Assembly: GCF_003574315.2 (NCBI RefSeq)
Contig: NZ_AP025739.1
Coordinates: 1,860,001-1,924,000, forward strand
Reading direction: 5' to 3'
Length of the DNA: 64,000 nucleotides
Source: Capsulimonas corticalis
GTDB taxonomy: Bacteria > Armatimonadota > Armatimonadia > Armatimonadales > Capsulimonadaceae
The notes below the pieces were generated by a model. The model did not search any database and was not told where the DNA came from. It saw only the letters and a program-made list of their open reading frames with translations. Each line of letters starts with the position of its first letter. Position 1 is the stretch's first letter. Shown here one piece after another: positions 37,059 through 63,542 of the stretch. The position numbers were made by a program, and so were the translations under genes.

Positions 37059-37070
37059 ATGGTCAGAATG

Positions 37071-37144
37071 AAGTTTCGGCGATGGACCCCGCCGGGGACG
37101 CGATGCGTCCCGAACCGTCATATTTTGACTGATGGCTCCTGCAC
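37071..37144 (+). ncRNA. Fluoride riboswitch (crcB motif)
   Basis: The aptamer hallmarks appear in order: GGCGATGGACCCCGCC, a variable GACGCGATGCGTC hairpin, GAACCG, and the terminal CTGATGGCTCCTGC. A following hairpin (TGGCGATTCGCCA, 37146-37158, extended by flanking CCG/CGG) and a short T-rich stretch could be the expression platform. It lies directly upstream of a crcB fluoride channel gene, the classic target. Confidence 0.9.
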
Positions 37145-37207
37145 CGCTGGCGATTCGCCACGGCTGCGGGGGCCATTTTCGTTTGAGAACCGAGGAGCAA
37201 AAGTCTG

Positions 37208-43152: not shown

Positions 43153-43400
43153 CCCTATTCCCCCGCGCTTTAGCGCGTTTCCCCTTTTTCCCAACAAGCT
43201 GCTGCGCAGGGGAAAAGGGGAGCCAATCATTTACGGCCATTCACACTCGACAAGTAGCGAATGAGAGGGGATATCGTTCACGAGCACTCTCATCTCGTTC
43301 TCTTTTGTTACTTGTCGAGCGAGCAAGGATGATAGTGATGAGCGCCCCTTTTCCCTTTGGGTAAAAGGGGAAAGCGCGCTAAAGCGCCGGGGGAATAGGG
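43153..43400. repeat. Class A palindromic intergenic element, copy 1 (between serC and serA)
   Basis: This 248-base element has terminal inverted repeats: CCCTATTCCCCC from 43153 and GGGGGAATAGGG ending at 43400, extended inward by GCGCTTTAGCGCG-type and CCCCTTTT runs. Each end also folds on itself (CCCCTTTTTCCC with GGGGAAAAGGGG). Its outer 95 bases at each side match copy 2 (45809-46046) in inverted orientation, while about 60 central bases differ. No coding frame is shared. Confidence 0.85.
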
Positions 43401-43409
43401 CCTATCCCC

Positions 43410-44501
43410 TTAACCCTTACGCTGCGCGAAATCCCGCAGCAGGTCGGCGAGCGTTTGGACGCCGGCGACCGGGAACGCGTTGTAAATGGAGGCGCGGAAG
43501 CCGCCGACGCTGCGGTGGCCTTTCAGACCGTCGAGCTTCGCGGCTTTGGCTTCGGCCAGGAACTCGGCTTCGAGGTCGGCGTTGCGCAGGCGCCAGGTGA
43601 CGTTCATCAGCGAGCGGTCTTCCTTGGCGGTGACGGCCGGCTCGTAGAAGCTGCTCAGTTCGTCGAGCGCGTTGTAAAGGATCGCGGCCTTTTCTTTATT
43701 GCGCTTCTCGATGACGGCCTGTCCGCCCTCGGCCTCAATCCACTTCAGCACCAGGCCGACGACGTAGATCGCGAAGGTCGGCGGGGTGTTGTAAAGGGAG
43801 TTGGCGTCGCGGTGCGTCTTGTAGGCCCAGATCGCGGGGATATCGGTGCGGGCGGTGTCTAAGAAGGACTTACGGGCGGCGACAATGGTGACGCCCGCCG
43901 GGCCCGCGTTCTTCTGCGCGCCGGCGTAGATCATGGCGAACTTGCTGTTGTCGCGCTGAATGGCGGTGAAGTCCGAGGAGCAATCCGCGACCAGCGGGAC
44001 ATCGCCGACATTGGGCAGATCGAAGTATTCGGTGCCCTCGATCGTGTTGTTCGTGGTGATGTGGACGTAGCGCGCGTCGGGCGATACCGTGAACTGCTTG
44101 GGAATATACGCGTACTTGTCCGCCTTCGACGACGCGATTTCGCGCACGTCGCCCAGGTTCTTTCCTTCCTTGAGCGCCTTCGCGCCCCAGTCGCCGCCGA
44201 TGATGTACTCGGCGTGCTGGCCCGCGCTCAGGAAGTTGAGGGGGAGCTGAGCGAACTGGCCGCTTGCGCCGCCCTGCAAAAAGAGCGGAACATAGTCGTC
44301 CGCGCTCAGGCCAAGGACGCGCAGCAGGCGCTGCTCCGCGTCGGCGTGAATGGCCTCATAGTCCTTGCCCCGGTGACTGACTTCCAGCAGGGACATTCCC
44401 GATCCATTAATTTCGCGCACGCCTTGCGCGGCTTCTTCCAGCACAGCCTCGGGCAGGATAGCGGGCCCGGCGCTGAAGTTGTATATCCGGTGGCTCATCA
44501 T
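43410..44501 (-). CDS. serC: Phosphoserine aminotransferase
   Basis: A 363-residue PLP enzyme that converts 3-phosphohydroxypyruvate and glutamate to phosphoserine, the second step of serine synthesis. Family markers are IYNFSAGPAILP at the start, ISHRG-type SLLEVSHRGKDYEA, LQGGASGQFAQLP, SSDF near 175 and the PLP lysine Lys197 in YAGAQKNAGPAG. GAGGAG lies six bases before the ATG. The gene is followed by a class A repeat and then serA on the same strand, so the two may be transcribed together through the repeat. Confidence 0.96.
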   Translation of the reverse strand: MMSHRIYNFSAGPAILPEAVLEEAAQGVREINGSGMSLLEVSHRGKDYEAIHADAEQRLLRVLGLSADDYVPLFLQGGASGQFAQLPLNFLSAGQHAEYIIGGDWGAKALKEGKNLGDVREIASSKADKYAYIPKQFTVSPDARYVHITTNNTIEGTEYFDLPNVGDVPLVADCSSDFTAIQRDNSKFAMIYAGAQKNAGPAGVTIVAARKSFLDTARTDIPAIWAYKTHRDANSLYNTPPTFAIYVVGLVLKWIEAEGGQAVIEKRNKEKAAILYNALDELSSFYEPAVTAKEDRSLMNVTWRLRNADLEAEFLAEAKAAKLDGLKGHRSVGGFRASIYNAFPVAGVQTLADLLRDFAQRKG

Positions 44502-44703
44502 CGATATCTCCTCGAAAATTGTCCGCGGTCTGTTCCACGCATCAAAAATACGTCAAATGACTCCCGCAAATCGCATAAAGTGTACCTGTTTTTCGCCCAA
44601 ACAGGTACCGGCAATTGAACGTTTGCCGCTAATGCGACCGGGGTACAGAAGAATATCAGCAAGATTCGAAGATGGAAATCAATATCAAGAAGAGGAACCA
44701 GCG

Positions 44704-45285
44704 ATGAATGCAATACAAGAACCGACGGCTCACGTAACGACAGGACAGGTCGCCGCCGCCTTTGTGGATCGCGCCCATGCGGAGGAGGCGATCCTGGCGC
44801 TGGAGGCCGCGAGCTTCCCGCGCGAAGCGATCGGAGCCGCCATTCGCAACCATAACGAAGAGAAGCTGTTGATCGAGCATACGGGCGCGCATGGGACGGG
44901 CGAAGAGCGCACGAGCATCGTCGAAGGCGGCCTGATCGGCGGATTCGTCGGCGCGATCATCGGCTTCGGGATCCTCAGCGTCCCCGGCGTCGGTCCCGTC
45001 ATCGCGGGTGGCGTCCTCGCCTCCGCGCTGGCGGGCGCCGGGATCGGCGCCGCCTCGGGCGGCATCCACGCCGCGCTGACCCACCTGGGCCTATCCGTGG
45101 AGCAGGCCGACGAGCTGGAGACCCATTTCCGGGCCGGCGCCGCGCTGGTGATCGTCAACGCGGGAGCTCGCGCCGACGAAGCGATGCGAATCTTTGATAA
45201 GTTTGGCGGAGTGACTCACGCCTCGCCCGTGGAGGAAGCGCTGACGGAGGAAGAGGCCGAGGAGATTGAAGAAAAGGCCTGGTGA
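44704..45285 (+). CDS. Glycine-zipper stress protein (general stress protein 17M-like)
   Basis: A 193-residue protein. The N-terminal 60 residues (VAAAFVDRAHAEEAILALEAASF) look like the YflT/general stress protein 17M domain. The middle (about 80-130) is a glycine-zipper hairpin of two hydrophobic segments (GGLIGGFVGAIIGFGIL and AGGVLASALAGAGIGAASGG) that could insert in a membrane. The C-terminal part again has the stress-protein fold (GAALVIVNAGARADEAMRIF) and ends in a Glu-rich tail. The start is set by AGAGGAA upstream. Role probably in stress tolerance; mechanism unknown. Confidence 0.72.
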   Translation: MNAIQEPTAHVTTGQVAAAFVDRAHAEEAILALEAASFPREAIGAAIRNHNEEKLLIEHTGAHGTGEERTSIVEGGLIGGFVGAIIGFGILSVPGVGPVIAGGVLASALAGAGIGAASGGIHAALTHLGLSVEQADELETHFRAGAALVIVNAGARADEAMRIFDKFGGVTHASPVEEALTEEEAEEIEEKAW

Positions 45286-45305
45286 CCCAGGCCCTTTCGG
45301 AAAGT

Positions 45306-45779
45306 CTACAAGATCGTCTCGATGTAATTCTGCGACGCCGCGTCGAGCTTCTCGACATTCGGGATCTCGAAGCGGCTTCCATCGACATCCAGCAGCAGGA
45401 GATGCGTCGGCGATAGCCACACCGCATTCTCCTGCAAGTTCTGCGTCACGAAGTCCTTCGTTCCCCGGTCCGTCTCCACCGTCCAATACGTCGCGCCGAA
45501 CTCCTGCTTCGCGTGCTTGACCGTAATCACGGTCGCCGTCAGATACCGCCGCCGCAGCTCCTCCTTCGCCGCCGTCAGCGACTCCGGGGACAGCGTATTC
45601 GGATCCGAAACCGTCACGATCTCATCACCCTTGCCGTCAAGCAGCGCGAGATAAGTATTCGGCCGCGAAAGCGGCGCCGCCCAGGCGGGACGGACGGTAT
45701 GGTACGATTTCTCGCCTTCGATCGTGAGGCGAAGGCGGTCCTTGGGTTCATAGAAGAGTTTTAGGGTTTCTGGGTTCAT
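45306..45779 (-). CDS. DUF1854 family protein
   Basis: A 157-residue soluble protein starting MNPETLKLFYEPKDRLRLTI. The TYWTVETDRGTKDFVTQNLQENAVW segment, with LLLLDVDGSRFEI and the final LDAASQNYIETIL, is the pattern of DUF1854. In proteobacteria this family is annotated as associated with cyanophycin metabolism and with a cognate ABC transporter. Here an ABC exporter gene lies directly upstream on the same strand, separated by a class A repeat. The longer open frame (to 46076) reads through the repeat and is not real. Biochemical role unknown. Confidence 0.8.
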   Translation of the reverse strand: MNPETLKLFYEPKDRLRLTIEGEKSYHTVRPAWAAPLSRPNTYLALLDGKGDEIVTVSDPNTLSPESLTAAKEELRRRYLTATVITVKHAKQEFGATYWTVETDRGTKDFVTQNLQENAVWLSPTHLLLLDVDGSRFEIPNVEKLDAASQNYIETIL

Positions 45780-45808
45780 GGTTTGTTTCTCTGATGGGGG
45801 CGTGTCGG

Positions 45809-46046
45809 CCCTATTCCCCCGGCGCTTTATCGCGCTTCCCCCTTTTGCCCAGAGGTAAAAGGGGCGCTCATCATTGTGATCCTTGCTCGCTCGACAAGTA
45901 TGTTTGATGAATGCTTTGCTTTCGTAAGCATGATCCTCACGTTCATGTGACGAGTGAATGGCTATAATGAGTGGCTCCCCTTTTCCCCTGCGCAGCAGCT
46001 TGTTGGGAAAGAGGGGGAAGCGCGATAAAGCGCCGGGGGAATAGGG
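45809..46046. repeat. Class A palindromic intergenic element, copy 2 (between ABC and DUF1854 genes)
   Basis: This 238-base element starts CCCTATTCCCCCGGCGCTTT and ends with the exact inverted copy, giving terminal inverted repeats of about 35 bases. It is inverted relative to copy 1 (43153-43400). The outer thirds are strongly conserved, including CAACAAGCTGCTGCGCAGGG and ACTTGTCGAGCGAGCAAGGA, while the centre differs. Confidence 0.85.
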
Positions 46047-53601: not shown

Positions 53602-53756
53602 AGGCCCTCACCCGGCGCTCCGCGCCACCTTCTCCCAAAATTGGGAGAAGGTTATGAGTAAGATATTGGATCAAAGATCCAAAAGAACTCAAAACAAAAT
53701 TCCCTCTGACCCCCCCTCTCCCAATTTTGGGAGAGGGGGCCGGGGGGTGAGGGCCT
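53602..53756. repeat. Class B palindromic intergenic element (between bioF and bioD)
   Basis: A 155-base element whose ends are inverted copies (AGGCCCTCACCC at the left, GGGTGAGGGCCT at the right). Each end carries a strong hairpin with the core CTCCCAAAATTGGGAG or its complement. It resembles the widely seen bacterial intergenic repeats that start GGCCCTCACCC. It begins eight bases after the bioF stop on the transcript, so it separates bioF from bioD. Confidence 0.75.
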
Positions 53757-58029: not shown

Positions 58030-58097
58030 CCCCGTCAATCTCCCATGAGGCGCCAGCGGTTAATGCATTTGGTCGATTTAGTAACGCAATCGCCTAC

Positions 58098-58285
58098 GTC
58101 AGAAGGCCGGCGGTTGAAACCGCGCCTCCGAGAGCGCGGAAGTCCGCCTGCGCGGACTGCATGATCCATGACGGCGCCGACGAACATGGTCGCGTGATAA
58201 GGCGGTATCGTCTACAAATATGTAACCCACGCAGGTGGGTTTCTGCGCTCTGGCAGGCGCGGTTTCCAACCGCCGGCCTTCTGAC
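58098..58285. repeat. Class C palindromic intergenic element
   Basis: A 188-base element with 30/31-base terminal inverted repeats, GTCAGAAGGCCGGCGGTT through CGCGCCT at the left (58098-58127) and the inverted copy at 58255-58285 with one extra base. The interior has a hairpin core AGTCCGCCTGCGCGGACT and a second small hairpin (ACCCACGCAGGTGGGT). It sits between the convergent vsr and bpX6-like genes. Confidence 0.8.
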
Positions 58286-58305
58286 GCAGACAATTGCACT
58301 GCCAT

Positions 58306-63400: not shown

Positions 63401-63542
63401 GGCGAATGAATTCGCGGCTAAAAGTACGGCCACCCGCCTGCGCGGGTTCAGATTTTACGCCGCAGGCGCTTATCTTATATGCCGTAGGCTCCGAAGTCCG
63501 CGAAGGCGGACGGCCGTACTTTTAGCCGCGAATTTATTCGCC
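63401..63542. repeat. Class D palindromic intergenic element (between MoxR-like and bpX5-like genes)
   Basis: A 142-base element with 31-base terminal inverted repeats (GGCGAATGAATTCGCGGCTA at 63401, inverted copy ending 63542) differing at one base. The interior has hairpins such as CCCGCCTGCGCGGG, the same core type as in class C. It separates the ATPase gene from the rest of its operon. Confidence 0.8.

Follow-up and report, generated by a model that had tools for sequence, protein, structure and literature searches.

Palindromic intergenic repeats are common in bacteria, and several kinds have no known mobilising enzyme. Among the closest described systems are the REPs and BIMEs that are associated with RAYTs in REPtrons and TIRtrons (PMC3733652). 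REP units are 20–40 bp long, bear a GTAG or CGTC tag and are linked to HUH/Y1 transposases, and REPs of the CGTC type have no dedicated transposase (Di Nocera 2013, PMC3733652). A second body of work concerns DUF559, a broadly distributed protein family of unknown function. A study on Thermosynechococcus assigned a DUF559 gene, in connection with an intein, to the EDxHD homing family (PMC9403480). Furthermore, the VsrA protein of Caulobacter contains a DUF559 domain and has been assigned a role in mismatch repair (PMC12907096); the passages of that paper on VsrA draw no link to repeats and contain the string ‘palindrom’ zero times. In the literature that we searched, whose coverage leaves out most subscription journals, no link between DUF559 and palindromic repeats, inverted repeats or mobile elements was found.

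We analysed a stretch of 64,000 nucleotides (termed the window) from the 7,645,051 bp genome of Capsulimonas corticalis, an organism of the Armatimonadota. A preliminary description of the window had reported two palindromes of about 240 bp that are inverted relative to each other, with terminal inverted repeats, like ends and unlike centres. Alignment of the two copies bears out their positions (Table 1) and this pattern. Specifically, copy 1 and the reverse complement of copy 2 share 86 of 97 positions over the left ~95 bp and 85 of 94 over the right ~94 bp, but just 30 of 65 in the centre. The terminal inverted repeats extend over 33 nt in copy 1 (85%, ungapped) and 43 nt in copy 2 (95%).

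Table 1. Positions of the two palindromic elements and their parts, in coordinates of the window.
Feature	Position	Strand	Remarks
Copy 1, palindromic element, 249 bp	43153..43401	+	between serA-like and serC-like genes (names by inspection)
Copy 2, palindromic element, 239 bp	45808..46046	-	inverted relative to copy 1; just 3′ of an ABC-transporter-like gene (name by inspection)
Copy 1, left terminal inverted repeat (outer arm)	43160..43192	+	
Copy 1, right terminal inverted repeat (outer arm)	43360..43392	+	
Copy 2, left outer arm	45809..45851	+	43 nt; 95% complementary to right arm
Copy 2, right outer arm	46004..46046	+	
Copy 1, side hairpin GCTGCTGCGCAG	43199..43210	+	second pair UA, CG or GC depending on copy
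Copy 1, variable centre	43246..43319	+	lies between the inner inverted arms CTCGACAAGTA and TACTTGTCGAG
Copy 2, variable centre (approximate)	45885..45955	-	contains inner arm CTCGTCACAT..CGTGAGGA

The full element has a nested layout, in which an outer palindrome (CCCTATTCCCCCGGCGCTTTAGCGC../..GGGGGAATAGGG) encloses arms of the form CCCCTTTTTCCC..GGGAAAAGGGG that bear a small side hairpin, followed by inner inverted arms and a short centre. The centres carry two kinds of inner inverted arms (CTCGACAAGT.. and CTCGTCACAT..), and the variable centre is in part a swap of these arms. The inner arm of copy 2 (CTCGTCACAT..CGTGAGGA) matches the inner arm that adjoins the DUF559 gene of a coding copy elsewhere in the genome (see below). 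Both window copies fold end to end, with z scores of −13.4 for copy 1 (DNA parameters) and −12.4 for copy 2 (RNA parameters), and none of 200 shuffled sequences was equally stable in either case. A structured RNA, which the preliminary description had offered as one possible reading, did not hold up as the main explanation. No Rfam family matches the palindromes, the sole match in the window being a fluoride riboswitch elsewhere (RF01734, 37 bits, positions 37069–37148, + strand), and covariation is modest, with 6 of 58 pairs altered on both sides and a covariation term of −0.43. The window contains two more long inverted repeats, with arms of 34–47 nt, at 58086–58297 and 63401–63542.

The two window copies belong to a larger family. 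BLAST with copy 1 against the genome returned 79 matches, and the genome has 71 occurrences of the end motif CCTATTCCCCC, compared with 0 for the reversed pattern. The preliminary description had named a total of just two copies as grounds for refuting its reading, and this is not the case here. Our census of the genome comprises ~20 full-length copies and ~15 short or partial ones. Fifteen full copies, both window copies among them, are gene-less (244–312 bp as extracted), and five longer copies contain an IS3-type element (three copies), an ORF (one) or a DUF559 gene (one). About 11 short palindromes of ~37 bp consist of the outer arms only, and there are a few partial or one-hairpin forms. 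One element (L044, genome 5646484–5646795) shows an about fivefold tandem expansion of GGGAAGCAGCTTGCT in its side hairpin. Elements adjoin the 3′ end of a gene, typically within tens of bases of the stop codon. When gene direction was called by a heuristic combining ORFs with GC content at the third codon position, 16 of the 30 elements with readable flanks lay between convergent genes, 14 between tandem genes and 0 between divergent genes, a distribution like that reported for REPs (PMC3733652).

The palindromes also receive other DNA. Three near-identical IS3-type elements (L035, L036 and L037; genome 1441113, 2048452 and 3903311) each lie at a different point inside a palindrome copy and bring their own ends, which are internal to the palindromic element. 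This pattern suggests that the IS3-type element prefers these palindromes; IS1397 likewise prefers BIMEs. With ends inside the element and three different landing points, the IS3-type elements are later insertions, and an IS3 parent was rejected. One and the same IS4-like insertion sequence (ORF MLGSGWAENEIQ..) is found inside palindromes of two different families (L056 and L338; genome 1657378 and 2160474). Another copy of the element (L039, genome 3596322–3597179) contains an ORF of ~168 aa on the minus strand that has no Pfam match.

The coding copy with the DUF559 gene (L038/L071, genome 2525611–2526291) has the same arms as the gene-less copies, placed around this one gene, whose product scores 105.3 bits against DUF559 (PF04480; Pfam gathering score 20.6). 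Each of the three strong DUF559 genes in this genome sits in inverted repeats, and the palindrome family differs from gene to gene. The GCAAACCCACCCC family, with 221 end matches, comprises ~100 gene-less copies, mostly ~151 bp long, and a single DUF559 copy of ~700 bp. Next to the DUF559 gene of this family, and outside the arms, lies a 25 bp stretch that three of the five gene-less copies examined also have, at an identical offset; 0 of 200 shuffles gave as good a result. Shared sequence beside the gene would be expected either if gene-less copies arose by deletion or if the gene arrived by insertion.

The association extends well beyond this genome. Among Armatimonadota, 30 of 49 DUF559 loci lie between inverted repeats (repeat ≤400 bp away on both sides, score ≥20), compared with 3 of 490 controls in which flanks of different loci were paired. 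For loci from many phyla, a set in which a few loci come from genomes that are also in the Armatimonadota set, the count is 29 of 75, compared with 5 of 750 for mismatched flanks and 4 of 367 for shifted positions. Genes for PIN-domain proteins, used as a further control, gave 0 of 25, and the controls overall stand at ~1% or less. No such repeat was found within 400 bp of the remaining 19 Armatimonadota loci and 46 loci of the other set. The arms around DUF559 genes are often alike across phyla, with the form CCCTCTCCC-loop-GGGAGAGGG; this hairpin occurs between 1 and 372 times per genome in the ten genomes checked. The highest count belongs to a genome of the Armatimonadota (G129) with an unusually dense load of palindromes, where the hairpin takes the form CCCTCTCCC-N2-12-GGGAGAGGG. 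The window itself has, at 53620–53745, a palindrome of another family, the CCCTCTCCCAATTTTGGGAGAGGG type, which flanks DUF559 genes in other phyla.

The fold predicted for the DUF559 protein that the coding copy encodes (pLDDT 87.7) resembles those of 3hrl (Z 15.8), I-Bth0305I (3r3p; a homing endonuclease, Z 13.0) and Vsr (Z 10.3). A profile search likewise returned 3hrl (1e-35) and, more weakly, the I-Bth0305I chain of 3r3p (9e-4). Residues D45, E56, D58, H62 and D69 are among those invariant in 15 members, as would be expected of an active nuclease. By predicted fold and by sequence, the DUF559 protein of the element is classed as a Vsr/EDxHD-type nuclease of a homing family.

Two pairs of loci bear on the movement of the arms together with the gene. 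In two genomes of one genus (L174 in G006, L175 in G002), a DUF559 gene and its two arms form a 540 bp stretch of 99% identity between flanks that are unrelated. Both copies have an in-frame TAG near the N-terminus, ahead of the conserved core. In the second pair, from Bacteroidetes (L213/L234), 690 bp are 91% identical. The near-identity of 540 bp between unrelated flanks shows that the unit of arms and gene moves as a whole, and that one such unit did so recently.

For comparison with a relative we used a Capsulimonas sp. assembly (G001) that is 69% complete and contains more than 40 such elements. Nineteen of 43 G001 loci correspond to palindrome-bearing sites in the window genome, often in a different form; the loci were chosen by presence of a palindrome, which biases the fraction occupied in both species upward. 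Two sites have a short form in one species and a full form in the other (L140/L048 and L146/L057), and a third is found with and without an IS (L164/L035). In the window genome, the 19 elements checked that are full-length or carry an insert all have a centre of the CCATTCAC/CCTTGCTCG type. Most G001 elements have a centre of the CCAGGCGA type, including those at shared sites (L131/L041, L133/L050, L160/L052 and L126/L042), as if copies had been converted or replaced in place. The preliminary description had suggested that the centre is exchanged. This is half borne out: orthologous sites often carry other arms in the two species, within one genome the arms are common to the copies, and centres also contain nested insertions.

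Fourteen further G001 sites were located in the window genome through their flanks, and eleven of them gave a clear reading. Four are occupied there by another palindrome family, two by a divergent or degraded relative, and five have no palindrome of this kind (two of these bear a scar and one another hairpin). No target duplication is evident at sites that are occupied in G001 and empty in the window genome, where the flanks have diverged. The serA/serC junction is absent from the 69%-complete assembly, which consequently offers no ortholog of that window-copy site. Because form, family and occupancy differ between the species at mapped sites, palindrome sites are evidently gained and lost, as well as re-used and converted.

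Our best explanation, to which we give an even chance, is that the two elements of the window are MITE-like, carry no gene and belong to a family of intergenic palindromes of which the coding form is a small mobile DUF559 unit that spreads by break-stimulated copying. The stronger part of this explanation, which is probable, is that arms and DUF559 gene together make up a mobile element and that the window copies are its gene-less relatives. The part that makes the nuclease the driver of the spread is plausible, if slightly short of an even call. In the mechanism that we envisage, the DUF559 nuclease would nick or break DNA at palindromes or at equivalent sites near the 3′ ends of genes, and repair would then copy an element in, with the arms serving as homology, in a homing-like process. 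Gene-less copies may arise by internal loss or by copying in trans, and the hairpins, once settled, may also act at the 3′ ends of mRNAs. Homing-like copying would account for the re-use of the same sites, the replacement of families and subfamilies, the concerted evolution of the arms and the nested palindromes. It would also account for the absence of a transposase and of any evident target duplication. Several observations weigh against the explanation: the in-frame TAG in both L174 and L175, the DUF559 loci that lack a nearby inverted repeat (19 of 49 and 46 of 75), the entry of other sequences into the palindromes, and the mismatch-repair role given to Caulobacter VsrA (PMC12907096).

The DUF559 gene might instead be a passenger or parasite that has settled in the centre of palindromes that serve as insertion hot spots and are moved in trans, for example by a RAYT-type Y1 transposase or an unknown enzyme. 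The IS3-type elements (three copies), the IS4-like sequence (two loci) and the ORF without a Pfam match all enter palindromes, so DUF559 could have done likewise, and Y1 transposases flanked by inverted repeats do exist in the genome. We consider this unlikely, since the insertion sequences carry their own ends whereas the DUF559 gene has none beyond the palindrome arms. Furthermore, the gene is found in three different palindrome families, its link to inverted repeats recurs across phyla, and the arms and gene travel together as one unit. A RAYT was rejected as the mover. Two Y1 (RAYT-like) genes (L074 and L075; genome 2822448 and 2171961) lie between long inverted repeats ending in CCGTCCGTGCCGGACGG, forming TIRtron-like units, but these arms are unrelated to the window family; two others have no arms, and none of these four Y1 genes is flanked by the window palindrome.

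It is more doubtful still that the palindromes are structured 3′-end elements, acting as terminators or mRNA stabilisers, that are not mobile now, with selection maintaining them and ordinary gene conversion between repeats keeping their sequences alike. The invariable position beside the 3′ end of a gene, with no divergent context, would fit such a role, as would the very stable hairpins, some compensatory changes and the many sites occupied in both species. However, at least 5 of the 14 mapped sites prove in the other species to be either empty or scarred, the palindrome family can change between species at one site, and neither the DUF559 link nor the movement of a whole unit is predicted by this explanation.

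The MITE reading of the preliminary description survives in so far as the elements are multicopy and gene-less, have common ends and have a longer coding relative. The transposase with the same ends that it proposed to look for was not found, and the coding relative carries the DUF559 nuclease instead. A classic MITE, the deletion derivative of an ordinary IS with a DDE transposase acting on these ends, would fit the size, terminal inverted repeats and copy number, yet is very improbable, as the only transposases inside family members have their own ends, internal to the element, and no target duplication is evident at mapped empty sites, whose flanks have diverged.

If the DUF559 unit does spread by homing-like copying, the same may be true more generally. 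We put forward tentatively that one widespread kind of bacterial intergenic palindrome with no known mobiliser spreads in this way, driven by the DUF559 nucleases of rare full-length copies. It is equally conjectural that such a system would be the nuclease counterpart of REP-RAYT, with existing hairpins and the 3′ ends of genes as its targets, turning one repeat family into another. The link described here offers a testable role for DUF559 and gives these repeats a candidate mover. It also points to mobile DNA that would act through homing and take the place of repeats where a site is already occupied. The parts, namely palindromic repeats, homing-type nucleases and MITE-like derivatives, are known; no paper in the literature searched combines them.

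Like the REPs and BIMEs that accompany RAYTs, the elements described here are palindromic, multicopy and intergenic, lie between tandem or convergent genes 3′ of coding regions, and exist in a coding version with these repeats at its borders (PMC3733652). They differ from REPs in being nested palindromes of ~240 bp with a DUF559 nuclease; the full copies, at 239–312 bp, exceed the 20–40 bp of REP units, and the short palindromes measure ~37 bp. With MITEs they share short, gene-less, multicopy forms with terminal inverted repeats and longer coding copies, but here the coding partner is a nuclease and no transposase has the same ends. The mobile GC clusters of yeast mitochondria are likewise palindromic mobile repeats inserted in one another, although these are organellar and are not known to encode a DUF559 gene. 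Vsr (1cw0, 1vsr) has the nuclease fold in common with the DUF559 protein and differs in its role in mismatch repair. I-Bth0305I (3r3p), an EDxHD homing endonuclease, is similar in fold (Z 13.0), gives a weak sequence match (E 9e-4) and likewise comes from a gene that may promote its own spread. It is intron-encoded, whereas the DUF559 gene lies inside a palindromic repeat and its product is predicted to cut DNA.
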